DNA of 64,000 bases from Crossaster papposus (lineage: Eukaryota > Echinodermata > Asteroidea > Velatida > Solasteridae). The translations under genes were made by a program, and so were the position numbers. Shown piece by piece: positions 22,201 to 23,831 of this stretch. The notes beneath the pieces were generated by a model, which ran no database searches, had not been told where the DNA came from, and saw only the letters and a program-made list of their open reading frames with translations. Location: contig JBAIAA010000349.1 of assembly GCA_037893245.1 (NCBI GenBank), forward strand, positions 372,001 through 436,000, read 5' to 3'. Positions within the stretch are counted from its first letter, which is position 1. Each line of letters opens with the position of its first letter.

Positions 22201-22585
22201 GTCATCACTGCACTGATCTTGAACACTGAACAATGCATCTGTACCAAGTCAATCAAATTAACTTCAACAAGTTGGAGTTTGGCAGGTTTAGTACTGCTAG
22301 GTTCAGTACCAATAGTCAGTACCAAATGTGTAGCTCTTGAAGTTTGTTAGGTTTGGTATGCTTTCTAGTAAGAGAGCCTGAAGGGTTAGGGTTAACTTTT
22401 AATAGCTTTAACTCTAGTAGTATTACCTGTAAGACAGTGGTGCCGGGGTCCACCAAGACGCTCTTGTCATCCACGAACACCTCCACCTTCTCAGGCGCAG
22501 CGGTGGAGTTCAGCCGGTTACCTGTCAGGCAGGGCGCCAGCTGCCTGGAGACCAACAACGCACGCGACAGCGGTGCCCTTAACAT
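1084..22585 (-). CDS. NDUFS1: NADH:ubiquinone oxidoreductase core subunit S1 (75 kDa), complete 17-exon gene
   Basis: Complex I 75 kDa subunit of the mitochondrial inner-membrane N-module, which passes electrons from NADH through iron-sulfur clusters. The 17 coding exons (22427-22585, 21748-21855, 18098-18174, 16879-16960, 15010-15152, 14525-14588, 14319-14373, 12889-13055, 11566-11715, 10554-10699, 9518-9713, 8502-8726, 8104-8257, 7270-7381, 4722-4785, 3234-3368, 1084-1230) join in frame with GT..AG introns to 727 residues, the usual family length. An Arg-rich N-terminus fits a mitochondrial presequence. The 2Fe-2S ligands are C66, C77, C80, C94; the 4Fe-4S ligands are H126, C130, C133, C139 and C182, C185, C188, C232. 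Compared with the human protein as I recall it, there are 4 extra residues near 156-161 and a shorter C-terminus. The start ATG is at 22585-22583. AATAAA (minus strand, 1079-1084) overlaps the TAA stop. Confidence 0.97.
1753..2027 (+). repeat. MITE family E copy 1 (TCCAAATAGGCACTTAGG ends)
   Basis: Inverted termini CTCCAAATAGGCACTTAGG and AAGTGCCTATTTG surround a unique core. An inverted, nearly identical copy lies at 4917-5201. Confidence 0.75.
2121..2710. repeat. MITE with GCCCGAATTCATAAAC inverted ends
   Basis: Begins GCCCGAATTCATAAACCGTG and ends with the inverse (CACCGTTTATGAATTCGGGC). Non-coding, within NDUFS1 intron 16. Confidence 0.75.
2740..3160 (+). repeat. Interspersed repeat G copy 1 (TACTACTAGTAGTAAAAAG)
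   Basis: Its sequence, including the stretches around 2880-2990 and 3060-3150, recurs in inverse orientation at 29260-29650, in an eEF1B intron. No coding potential. Confidence 0.7.
3234..3368 (-). CDS. NDUFS1: NDUFS1 coding exon 16 (aa 635-679)
   Basis: Encodes [20 protein letters not shown] and [10 protein letters not shown]. Acceptor ATACAG|GTT, donor AAG|GTAGGA. Confidence 0.95.
3633..3876 (-). repeat. MITE family A copy (TTAACCAGTT ends), degenerate
   Basis: Starts TTAACCAGTT and runs through the family core (CCGAGCCGAGG; GCACACCCACGCATTTCCG) to a degraded right end. Lies in NDUFS1 intron 15. Confidence 0.75.
4722..4785 (-). CDS. NDUFS1: NDUFS1 coding exon 15 (aa 613-634)
   Basis: Encodes [20 protein letters not shown]. 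Acceptor TTAG|G, donor GAG|GTAGGG. Too short for an open-frame call and found by homology. Confidence 0.94.
4917..5201 (-). repeat. MITE family E copy 2
   Basis: Inverse of the 1753-2027 copy, with the same ends and core (AGTGTCTCCCTAAGTGTCTAG). A short ATA/AAT microsatellite follows at about 5207-5234. Confidence 0.75.
5235..5590 (-). repeat. tRNA-related SINE copy
   Basis: An antisense tRNA-like segment with a B-box GGTTCGAGTCCGG-type match lies around 5490-5580, next to a body (GGGAGTATACAGCTCGATGC) repeated at 51120-51370. Confidence 0.55.
5603..5847. repeat. MITE family D copy (GGGGCCAATTTCATA ends)
   Basis: Bounded by GGGGCCAATTTCATAAAACA and its inverse ATGTTTTATGAAATTGGCCC. Other copies are at 17813-18007, 31143-31411, 37770-37886 and 41525-41754. 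Confidence 0.8.
6506..7226. repeat. MITE family B copy with internal duplication
   Basis: Starts TTAAAGGGATCGTATAC and ends CGTATACGATCTCTTTGA. The interior is present twice in tandem (about 6530-6850 and 6850-7190). It ends about 43 nt beyond the donor of NDUFS1 exon 14. Confidence 0.75.
7270..7381 (-). CDS. NDUFS1: NDUFS1 coding exon 14 (aa 576-613)
   Basis: Encodes [20 protein letters not shown] and the [11 protein letters not shown] motif. Donor AAG|GTCGGC. A MITE copy ends about 43 nt downstream of the donor. Confidence 0.95.
8104..8257 (-). CDS. NDUFS1: NDUFS1 coding exon 13 (aa 525-576)
   Basis: Encodes [30 protein letters not shown] and [10 protein letters not shown]. Gly576 is split at the donor. 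Confidence 0.96.
8380..8408. repeat. Fragment of MITE family A terminus
   Basis: AAAATAATCCTGGCGCAAAC followed by TGGTGAA matches the right end of family A with decay. It lies about 100 nt beyond the donor of exon 12. Confidence 0.5.
8502..8726 (-). CDS. NDUFS1: NDUFS1 coding exon 12 (aa 450-524)
   Basis: Encodes [29 protein letters not shown] and [10 protein letters not shown]. Acceptor CAACAG|CAC, donor CGG|GTGAGT. Confidence 0.96.
8924..9415. repeat. Perfect 12-bp tandem array, 41 units
   Basis: Unit GTGAGTCAGGTC is repeated 41 times with no length variation. The first 33 units (8924-9319) read GTGAG and the last 8 (9320-9415) read GCGAG. Because 12 is a multiple of 3, several frames stay open, which creates false repetitive ORFs. 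Lies in NDUFS1 intron 11. Confidence 0.97.
9518..9713 (-). CDS. NDUFS1: NDUFS1 coding exon 11 (aa 384-449)
   Basis: Encodes [17 protein letters not shown] and [14 protein letters not shown]. Donor GAT|GTAAGT. The intron after it holds the 12-bp tandem array at 8924-9415. Confidence 0.96.
9850..10465. repeat. Nested inverted-repeat element with tRNA-like segment
   Basis: The left arm (AACAATGGCAACTCAGC, AACCAACTCGCC) recurs inverted at 10335-10415. Inside is a hairpin (10030-10187, arms GTAAATGAGACGCTTTGAGG). A tRNA-like stretch at 9925-9985 has A-box TAGCCTAGTTGGTAG and B-box GGTTCGAATCC. Related copies are near 36000-36070 and 42335-42400. Confidence 0.65.
10554..10699 (-). CDS. NDUFS1: NDUFS1 coding exon 10 (aa 336-384)
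   Basis: Encodes [20 protein letters not shown] and TEEVFP. The acceptor CCAAAG|TTG gives a gap-free match in length with the human protein. Gly384 is split at the donor. Confidence 0.95.
11030..11235 (+). repeat. 17-bp minisatellite (TTTTTATCATGCGCGCA)
   Basis: About 12 imperfect units of 17 bp (TTTTTATCATGCGCGCA / TTTTTACTATGCGCGCA). The apparent [12 protein letters not shown] reading frames are by-products. Lies in NDUFS1 intron 9. Confidence 0.85.
11313..11554 (+). repeat. MITE family A, near full-length copy
   Basis: TTAACCAGTTCGCGCCGG at the left and CCGGCGCGAACTGGTTAA at the right; 242 bp including both TTAA. The right TTAA is 11 nt from the exon 9 donor of NDUFS1. Confidence 0.9.
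11566..11715 (-). CDS. NDUFS1: NDUFS1 coding exon 9 (aa 286-335)
   Basis: Encodes [20 protein letters not shown], a molybdopterin-oxidoreductase-like segment. A TTAA MITE begins only 11 nt inside the following intron, next to donor GAG|GTGGGT. Confidence 0.96.
11755..12860. repeat. Repeat-derived block with GCAGGTCACA termini
   Basis: Contains several copies of an element end (GGGAGCAGGTCACAAATAT, ACAGGTCACATATT) also found at 33047-33443 and near 1690 and 22180. No coding region seen; boundaries uncertain. Lies in NDUFS1 intron 8. Confidence 0.45.
12889..13055 (-). CDS. NDUFS1: NDUFS1 coding exon 8 (aa 230-285)
   Basis: Starts with [14 protein letters not shown], which supplies the last 4Fe-4S ligand C232, and continues through [11 protein letters not shown]. 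Donor GAG|GTCAGT. Confidence 0.96.
13290..13682 (+). repeat. Purine-rich GAA/GAC triplet tract, about 390 bp
   Basis: The plus strand is almost only GAA, GAC, GAG, GAT and AAA triplets; the NDUFS1 sense strand is therefore a TTC-rich polypyrimidine run. It yields long Glu/Asp, Lys, Ser and Leu pseudo-ORFs in every frame. Lies in NDUFS1 intron 7. Confidence 0.95.
14170..14318 (+). repeat. tRNA-derived SINE fragment
   Basis: A-box-like GTGTCCAAGTGGTTTGGG and B-box GGTTCGAATCC about 45 nt later, followed by GGGCAAGCCAATTTACC and a TTTAC tail directly before the exon 7 donor. Confidence 0.6.
14319..14373 (-). CDS. NDUFS1: NDUFS1 coding exon 7 (aa 212-230)
   Basis: Encodes [18 protein letters not shown]. 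Asp230 is split over the donor TTG|GTAAGT. It is too short to stand out as an open frame and was found by homology. Confidence 0.94.
14525..14588 (-). CDS. NDUFS1: NDUFS1 coding exon 6 (aa 190-211)
   Basis: Encodes [17 protein letters not shown], a highly conserved NDUFS1 segment. Acceptor CTCAG|G, donor CAG|GTACAC. Confidence 0.96.
14680..14972. repeat. CpG-rich 17-bp minisatellite
   Basis: About 17 units of 17 bp (GCCGTGCCAGTGCGCGG) in three blocks: CAGTGCGC, CGCTAGGC and CGCTGCGC variants. It is by far the most CpG-dense stretch of the NDUFS1 introns. Lies in intron 5, just upstream of exon 6. Confidence 0.9.
15010..15152 (-). CDS. NDUFS1: NDUFS1 coding exon 5 (aa 143-190)
   Basis: Carries RCIHCTRCI, three cysteines of the second 4Fe-4S cluster. 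The loop [11 protein letters not shown] is four residues longer than the human RFLEGKR as I recall it. The Arg190 codon is split at the donor CAG|GTGGGT. Confidence 0.96.
15550..16250 (+). repeat. Pyrimidine-rich intronic stretch with short direct repeats
   Basis: A segment of about 35 bp (CTTCCCTTTGATCTTCATCC) occurs at about 15602 and again near 15880, and CCTTTCAAAA recurs at 16000-16200. The Leu/Phe/Pro-rich open frame here lacks any gene signal. Confidence 0.5.
16879..16960 (-). CDS. NDUFS1: NDUFS1 coding exon 4 (aa 115-142)
   Basis: Carries the His/Cys 4Fe-4S ligand set [15 protein letters not shown] (H126, C130, C133, C139). Donor CAG|GTAAAA. Confidence 0.96.
17813..18007. repeat. MITE family D copy
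   Basis: Core GCTAAGCACAAATATTTGC, CAGCTGAATATCAGTCACAA and right end AATTGGCCCC match the other family D copies; the left end is worn. Lies in NDUFS1 intron 3. Confidence 0.7.
18098..18174 (-). CDS. NDUFS1: NDUFS1 coding exon 3 (aa 90-115)
   Basis: Encodes [13 protein letters not shown] with C94, the fourth 2Fe-2S ligand. The Arg115 codon is split across the donor CAG|GTATTT. Confidence 0.95.
18225..18425 (+). repeat. Family C-derived tandem repeats
   Basis: Four direct units of about 55-60 bp, each with ACACCATTGGTAATTGCTTG, the end of MITE family C, lie just upstream of NDUFS1 exon 3's acceptor. Confidence 0.75.
18890..19092. repeat. Hairpin with arms of about 80 bp
   Basis: GAATGCAGGGCTACTCAAC...GAATGGAGTGGCCCTGTATT is mirrored by AATACAGGGCCACTCCATTC...CCTGCATTC, with a loop of about 30 bp. 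Confidence 0.8.
19111..21661. repeat. MITE family B copy split by a younger insertion
   Basis: The left half (19111-19281) starts TTAAAGGGATCGTATACG; the right half (21446-21661) ends CGTATACGATCCCTTTAA. Together they match the 6506-7226 copy. The 2164-bp element between them is the later insertion. Confidence 0.88.
19282..21445. mobile_element. Non-autonomous DNA transposon with subterminal 21-bp arrays
   Basis: Terminal inverted repeats of about 39 bp start TACGGTGGCTCGTATTCGCC. A 6-bp target duplication GAATAC flanks it (19276-19281 and 21446-21451); the empty site is seen at 6690 and 7010. Inside each end is an array of GTTATATCGCCGTACTATTGC-like 21-bp units, in opposite orientation (19329-19510 and 21125-21395). 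The AT-rich core has no transposase. Confidence 0.88.
21748..21855 (-). CDS. NDUFS1: NDUFS1 coding exon 2 (aa 54-89)
   Basis: Carries three of the four 2Fe-2S cysteines (C66, C77, C80) in the motifs RFCYH and GNCRMC. Phase 0 at both ends; donor AAG|GTACGA. Confidence 0.96.
21998..22166 (+). repeat. MITE family A copy, 3'-truncated
   Basis: Starts TTAACCAGTTCGTGCC and runs through the core to CCCGCCTCGG, then joins an unrelated GGGAGCAAGTCACATATA element end. Upstream of NDUFS1 exon 2. Confidence 0.75.
22427..22585 (-). CDS. NDUFS1: NDUFS1 coding exon 1 (aa 1-53)
   Basis: Holds the initiator ATG, the Arg/Ser-rich targeting segment and the start of the ferredoxin-like 2Fe-2S domain, ending in GTTVLQ at donor CAG|GTAATA. 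A pyrimidine-rich stretch followed by AG lies just upstream of the ATG on the minus strand, so a separate 5' UTR exon is possible. Confidence 0.95.

Positions 22586-23831: not shown

Follow-up and report, generated by a model that had tools for sequence, protein, structure and literature searches.

A head-to-head NDUFS1/eEF1B gene pair as a candidate conserved divergent pair with a putative shared transcription start region

In a 64,000-nucleotide stretch of contig JBAIAA010000349.1 (hereafter the window, whose coordinates are used throughout), the genes of NDUFS1, a mitochondrial respiratory subunit, and of the translation factor eEF1B are adjacent and divergent, with their start codons 1166 bp apart. 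We regard this as a sound but ordinary candidate for a conserved divergent pair, the shared regulation of which is putative. The best explanation, to which we give a probability of about 40%, is that the two genes form an ancestral head-to-head pair transcribed from one start region, with NDUFS1 carrying an intron in its 5' leader. What is new here is a likely start of the eEF1B mRNA, whose terminal oligopyrimidine (TOP) letters are identical to those of human, together with the leader-intron model for NDUFS1.

Regarding the genes themselves, their exons were located by comparing the human NDUFS1 and EEF1B2 proteins with the translated window, and the exon borders were fitted by allowing GT or GC donors and AG acceptors and taking the best translated match. 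All 21 introns chosen in the two genes are GT-AG, and both coding regions are complete:

1084-22585, minus strand: coding region of NDUFS1 (complex I 75 kDa subunit), from the GT-AG exon model and the match to PDB 6zk9_3
22427-22585, minus strand: first coding exon of NDUFS1 in the fitted exon model, donor cag/GTAATA
23752-23831, 26777-26899, 28680-28891, 31985-32110, 33486-33553 and 33751-33834, plus strand: coding exons of eEF1B beta, from the exon model, Pfam PF00736 and PDB 1b64_A and 5dqs_D

The NDUFS1 model has 17 coding exons and 727 amino acids, with its start codon at 22583-22585 and its stop ending at 1084, while the eEF1B model (23752-33834) has 6 coding exons and 230 amino acids and starts with the codon at 23752-23754, which leaves 22586-23751 as the gap. 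Residues 1-723 of NDUFS1 match residues 1-717 of PDB chain 6zk9_3 with 1218.8 bits, that is, over the full length of the 75 kDa subunit. For eEF1B, the exchange domain EF1_GNE (PF00736) is found at residues 148-230 (7.2e-35), and all 6 listed PDB matches are EF-1 beta or delta. Although the highest-ranking of these is EF-1 delta (2n51_A, matched by the C-terminal residues 101-230), we assign the gene to beta because its N-terminal domain (residues 1-82) is matched by EF-1 beta 5dqs_D; an exchange domain combined with an N-terminal GST-like domain fits beta (EEF1B2) and not delta, with Pfam GST_C_3 at 20 bits, slightly below its cut-off of 21.6. The initial annotation had proposed both gene names and two complete divergent genes with 1166 bp between the start codons; the names are confirmed by the matches to 6zk9_3, PF00736 and 5dqs_D, and the exon models make the coordinates exact.

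The proteins are 74% (NDUFS1, 533 of 723 aligned columns) and 61% (eEF1B, 142 of 233) identical to the human ones, which would be too far for a vertebrate. Human NDUFS1 and EEF1B2 are adjacent at 2q33 and presumably head-to-head. Given these protein distances and the matching human order, the linkage would be older than the vertebrates, if that orientation is right. It had been claimed earlier that the pair has stayed together since before vertebrates if the window is from an invertebrate deuterostome: the divergent arrangement and the protein distances make this plausible. NDUFS1 also scores higher to 6zk9_3, which we take to be mammalian, than to 8b9z_G, presumably of Drosophila (1218.8 and 1035.5 bits), which fits a deuterostome origin and is no proof of it. 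In pig, one association table lists INO80D, NDUFS1, EEF1B2, GPR1, ZDBF2, ADAM23, FASTKD2, MDH1B and CPO under one marker (PMC4895286, this table). If the list follows map order, as we infer, NDUFS1 stands beside EEF1B2 on pig chromosome 15, so that the same two genes are side by side there as here. According to passages of PMC2871058, convergent arrangements are rarer among conserved gene pairs than divergent or co-directional ones, and the mean divergent distance in Metazoa is 34,912 bp, against which 1166 bp is short. In being divergent housekeeping genes with start codons about 1 kb apart, the two genes resemble bidirectional-promoter pairs in general.

Compared with the mammalian locus, the 1166 bp between the start codons here have mobile elements inside them. 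A blastn search within the 64-kb window (E 1e-3) found 462 of the 1166 bp (22655-23116) repeated elsewhere, and the remaining 704 bp (22586-22654 and 23117-23751) without a second copy in the window. The gap is thus divided as follows:

22586-22654, no strand: stretch of 69 bp beside NDUFS1, single-copy in the window by blastn
22655-22901, no strand: repeat element 1, with 19-nt perfect terminal inverted repeats (22658-22676 and 22883-22901) and TTAA at both ends
22894-23116, no strand: repeat element 2, a multi-copy element with its longest match at 30760-30987 (86%)
23117-23751, no strand: stretch of 635 bp beside eEF1B, single-copy in the window by blastn

Element 1 has the features of a piggyBac-like miniature inverted-repeat transposable element (MITE), and it would be young because the window holds a copy of it at 11313-11554 which is 95.9% identical over 242 bp. 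Directly adjoining it, element 2 seems to be a truncated representative of another multi-copy family. The description of much of the gap as young MITE sequence, given in the initial annotation, suits the 462 bp at 22655-23116, the other 704 bp being single-copy within the window.

It is reasonable to look for the ancestral promoter in the non-repeat part of the gap, as the initial annotation did, and there at the eEF1B end (about 23550-23750), because of TOP-type letters there and, more weakly, because of CpG counts. The letters in question are:

23668-23675, plus strand: CCTTTTTC, candidate TOP/TCT-type start of the eEF1B mRNA, beginning 84 bp upstream of the eEF1B ATG and giving a leader of about 83-84 nt

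Human eEF1B2 mRNA (NM_001959.4) starts with CCUUUUUC in Appendix A of PMC7407576, and CCTTTTTC is identical to the first 8 nt given there and stands where it would be expected relative to the eEF1B ATG. There are 4 copies of it in the window, both strands counted, from which a chance occurrence on one strand of any particular 120-bp zone has a probability of about 0.4%; looser start patterns are common by chance (CTTTYY 20%, C plus six pyrimidines 42%). A TOP mRNA has a C and then pyrimidines at its cap. Initiators of TOP/TCT type are carried by translation-associated genes, as passages of PMC6954239 state, and eEF1B is like these genes in having CCTTTTTC at the expected place, 23668 being a candidate cap site read from the sequence. 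It is likely that the eEF1B mRNA starts at this position in the TOP/TCT manner. Since CCTTTTTC lies at 23668, the eEF1B promoter is most likely to be at about 23550-23680, and the 635-bp stretch as a whole is likely to hold it. The CpG counts fit this placement weakly: 12 are observed against 9.2 expected in 23561-23751 (observed/expected, o/e, 1.30), of which the eEF1B leader at 23669-23751 has 7 against 3.6 (o/e 1.94), while 23401-23560 has 5 against 4.1 (o/e 1.23) and 23117-23400 has 3 against 10.0 (o/e 0.30).

At the other end of the gap, a splice-site model trained on the 21 introns of NDUFS1 and eEF1B points to a possible leader intron:

22610-22611, minus strand: candidate NDUFS1 3' splice site, TTTGCCTTTTCGTTAACCGACAG/GG, first exon base 22610, 25 nt before the ATG, score 9.75
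23540-23545, minus strand: weak candidate donor for the NDUFS1 leader, last exon base 23545, then GTGAGT, score 4.13

The acceptor is the best-scoring one of the minus strand in the gap. Only 33 of 6979 non-fitted AG sites on both strands, the candidate itself counted, score at least 9.75, a level reached by 4 of the 21 fitted acceptors when each is left out in turn, and an acceptor as good as this would turn up by chance in about 1.8% of 69-bp stretches and 5% of 200-bp stretches. Because a good acceptor lies 25 nt before the NDUFS1 ATG, we propose that a 5' leader intron of NDUFS1 might span the repeats, its true start lying near eEF1B; this is only a hypothesis, as no convincing donor was found. 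The NDUFS1 start codon and the young element of about 96% identity are 69 bp apart; a core promoter would probably tolerate such an insertion less well than an intron would, which supports the model. Transcription of both genes would then begin in a single open stretch near eEF1B, at about 23550-23680, with eEF1B starting at CCTTTTTC (1084 bp from the NDUFS1 ATG) and NDUFS1 starting nearby on the opposite strand, its leader being spliced to the acceptor at 22610. The mobile elements would be harmless inside the leader intron, and the distance from start to start would remain short, as is the distance between the two transcription starts of mammalian NDUFS1-EEF1B2. The link between the genes would amount to simple constitutive, growth-related expression, with no special circuit.

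Several points weigh against this explanation, concerning in turn the leader intron, the promoter motifs and the ancestry. The gap has no convincing donor: the one at 23545, with its 4.13, is outscored by six other GT sites there, the best being 6.38 at 23310, a value reached about twice per kb of the minus strand, and only 2 of the 21 fitted donors fall below 4.13 when left out (range 2.9 to 11.9). If the NDUFS1 start is assumed at 23660, two upstream ATGs come to lie in the leader exon. The CpG comparison involves small counts, and within the gap the two repeats (26 against 15.3 and 8 against 5.2 expected, o/e 1.70 and 1.54) are exceeded in CpG richness by the short leader only. Moreover, the splice-site and TOP tests were picked after the sequence had been read.

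The missing donor speaks as well for another account, in which the linkage is ancestral and, in this species, each gene now has its own promoter, some 1 kb from the other, with NDUFS1 starting within the 69 bp or the adjoining element. It is further suggested by the 462 bp of repeats which part the two single-copy stretches, by the minus-strand pyrimidines CCTTTTC at 22629, which could serve as a start, and by the CpG count of the 69 bp, which is close to expectation (4 against 4.2). The good acceptor at 22610 argues the other way, and so does the first exon of NDUFS1, in which CpG is much as in the remaining exons (o/e 0.73; exons 2-17 taken together, 0.69), so that it does not look like a promoter-adjacent exon, these counts being small too. 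We hold separate promoters to be quite plausible, at somewhat less than even odds.

As to the motifs, 18 promoter patterns were scanned in 22500-23800. This region has no match to ETS, NRF1 (whole or half) or CCAAT, and in lacking ETS and NRF1 it differs from bidirectional-promoter pairs in general. TATA-like matches occur at 23218 and 23311 on the plus strand and at 23223 on the minus strand, none of them 25-35 bp before the proposed starts. The single YY1-like match, AACATGGCG at 22581, against 0.12 expected, was dropped as a shared element because it overlaps the NDUFS1 start codon and because a lone match carries no weight. The same region gave no match to strict YY1, ATTGG, the strict CTCF core, ZNF143, E-box or the cAMP-response element (whole or half). 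Matches were found to GGGCGG (22856, within a repeat), to GGGCGCTA (one, with AGGGCGC at the same place, 23639-23640), to AGGGCGC again at 22531, to AGGGCA (two), and to the TCT type at 23668 on the plus and 22629 on the minus strand; apart from the TCT-type match at 23668, none of the motif matches was used for conclusions.

That 18 patterns yielded no known shared promoter motif would also suit a relic of gene order, where there is no shared regulation and the pair is kept as breaks in upstream regions are rarely tolerated. Consistent with this, the wider order is apparently not kept. Downstream of eEF1B, none of the 35 open frames of at least 60 amino acids in 34155-42521 has a Pfam match at E 0.01. 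Among 9 frames scanned further out, two match methyltransferase families (one above the cut-off) and one a DDE transposase, so that the nearest frame with an above-cut-off Pfam match is a methyltransferase at 50038-50394, and no trace of a GPR1-like receptor, the mammalian outer neighbour, was seen among the scanned frames, a scan which could miss genes that have short exons or lack Pfam domains. On the other side, the NDUFS1 coding region stops 1083 bp short of the window edge, its next neighbour lying beyond the window. Against the relic stands a statement of PMC2871058 that a functional relation is commoner among conserved divergent pairs than among poorly conserved ones. On balance we consider it unlikely.

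The ancestry has its own weak points. The same paper reports, in the passages concerned, that bidirectional pairs are enriched in vertebrates such as chicken and not in fishes or non-vertebrate animals (PMC2871058), and a goat interval has EEF1B2, NDUFS1 and GPR1 together in a different order (PMC9902602, as excerpted). One non-vertebrate locus was compared, so the likeness to the human order might be coincidence or convergence. With about 20,000 genes, the chance for a given gene to have a given head-to-head neighbour is estimated at about 1 in 40,000, which makes chance a poor explanation if the presumed human orientation is right; we find coincidence very improbable.

If the pair is indeed pre-vertebrate, this combination of respiration and translation would be a clean case for asking whether shared start regions hold genes together, for head-to-head pairs seldom survive even across vertebrates: passages of PMC3024869 give 14 of 1447 human pairs as conserved in mouse, chicken and fugu. 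In its strongest form, the idea would be that a single divergent NDUFS1/eEF1B promoter has been active since before vertebrates, with the TOP letters conserved, and has come through the arrival of mobile elements in this lineage because they landed in a spliced NDUFS1 leader intron, and that the pair couples respiratory and translational capacity through one growth-responsive start region; we find this form rather doubtful. A literature search of titles and passages found no description of NDUFS1-EEF1B2 as divergent or bidirectional, and neither gene name occurs in the main texts of PMC3815023, PMC4773876, PMC2871058, PMC3024869 and PMC6488298, the last of which is nevertheless indexed with the phrase 'EEF1B2 and NDUFS1'; possibly the pair is already in published microsynteny catalogues.

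Outside the pair, the methyltransferase-like frames at 42725-43135 (below Pfam cut-offs) and 50038-50394 (PF13649, 3.3e-12) are possibly one gene split by a transposon region. The transposase frame is at 47552-48355 on the minus strand (DDE_Tnp_4, PF13359, 5e-30) and is presumably of the Harbinger type. A minus-strand frame at 39387-39686 (beginning MPSNVEIKAYIREPD) has a CYTH-type look by eye, unconfirmed, with no Pfam match at E 0.01. ARAGORN (bacterial code) reported no tRNAs, and 10 pattern matches to relatives in viral contigs gave none confirmed.

The introns of human EEF1B2 house SNORD51 and SNORA41. Here Rfam at gathering score has no match in the whole window, hence none to a small nucleolar RNA in the eEF1B introns, and, differing from the human gene, neither of the two is among the 13 low-threshold Rfam hits in 21000-35300. 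One of these hits is a sub-threshold match to an R2 element (35015-35229), and the other 12, all sub-threshold and mostly to microRNA families, cluster in a single palindrome-like repeat of eEF1B intron 1 (26522-26695).

Both genes contain further repeats. Intron 2 of NDUFS1 has an element of about 2.55 kb (19111-21661) whose architecture is fold-back-like: its ends are perfect inverted repeats of 28 nt, inside both of which tandem arrays of a 21-bp unit of the GCGATATAACGCAATAGTACG type lie in inverted orientation. Another element of this fold-back-like kind, at 24248-25850 within intron 1 of eEF1B, is built alike from a different unit, the 16-bp ACTCGCCCCCTGACCG, in inverted arrays at both ends. 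Besides these, NDUFS1 intron 11 has 41 copies of a 12-bp unit (8924-9418, 99% match), and eEF1B intron 2 has about 21 copies of a 40-bp unit (26972-27804), interrupted by other sequence near 27390-27510.

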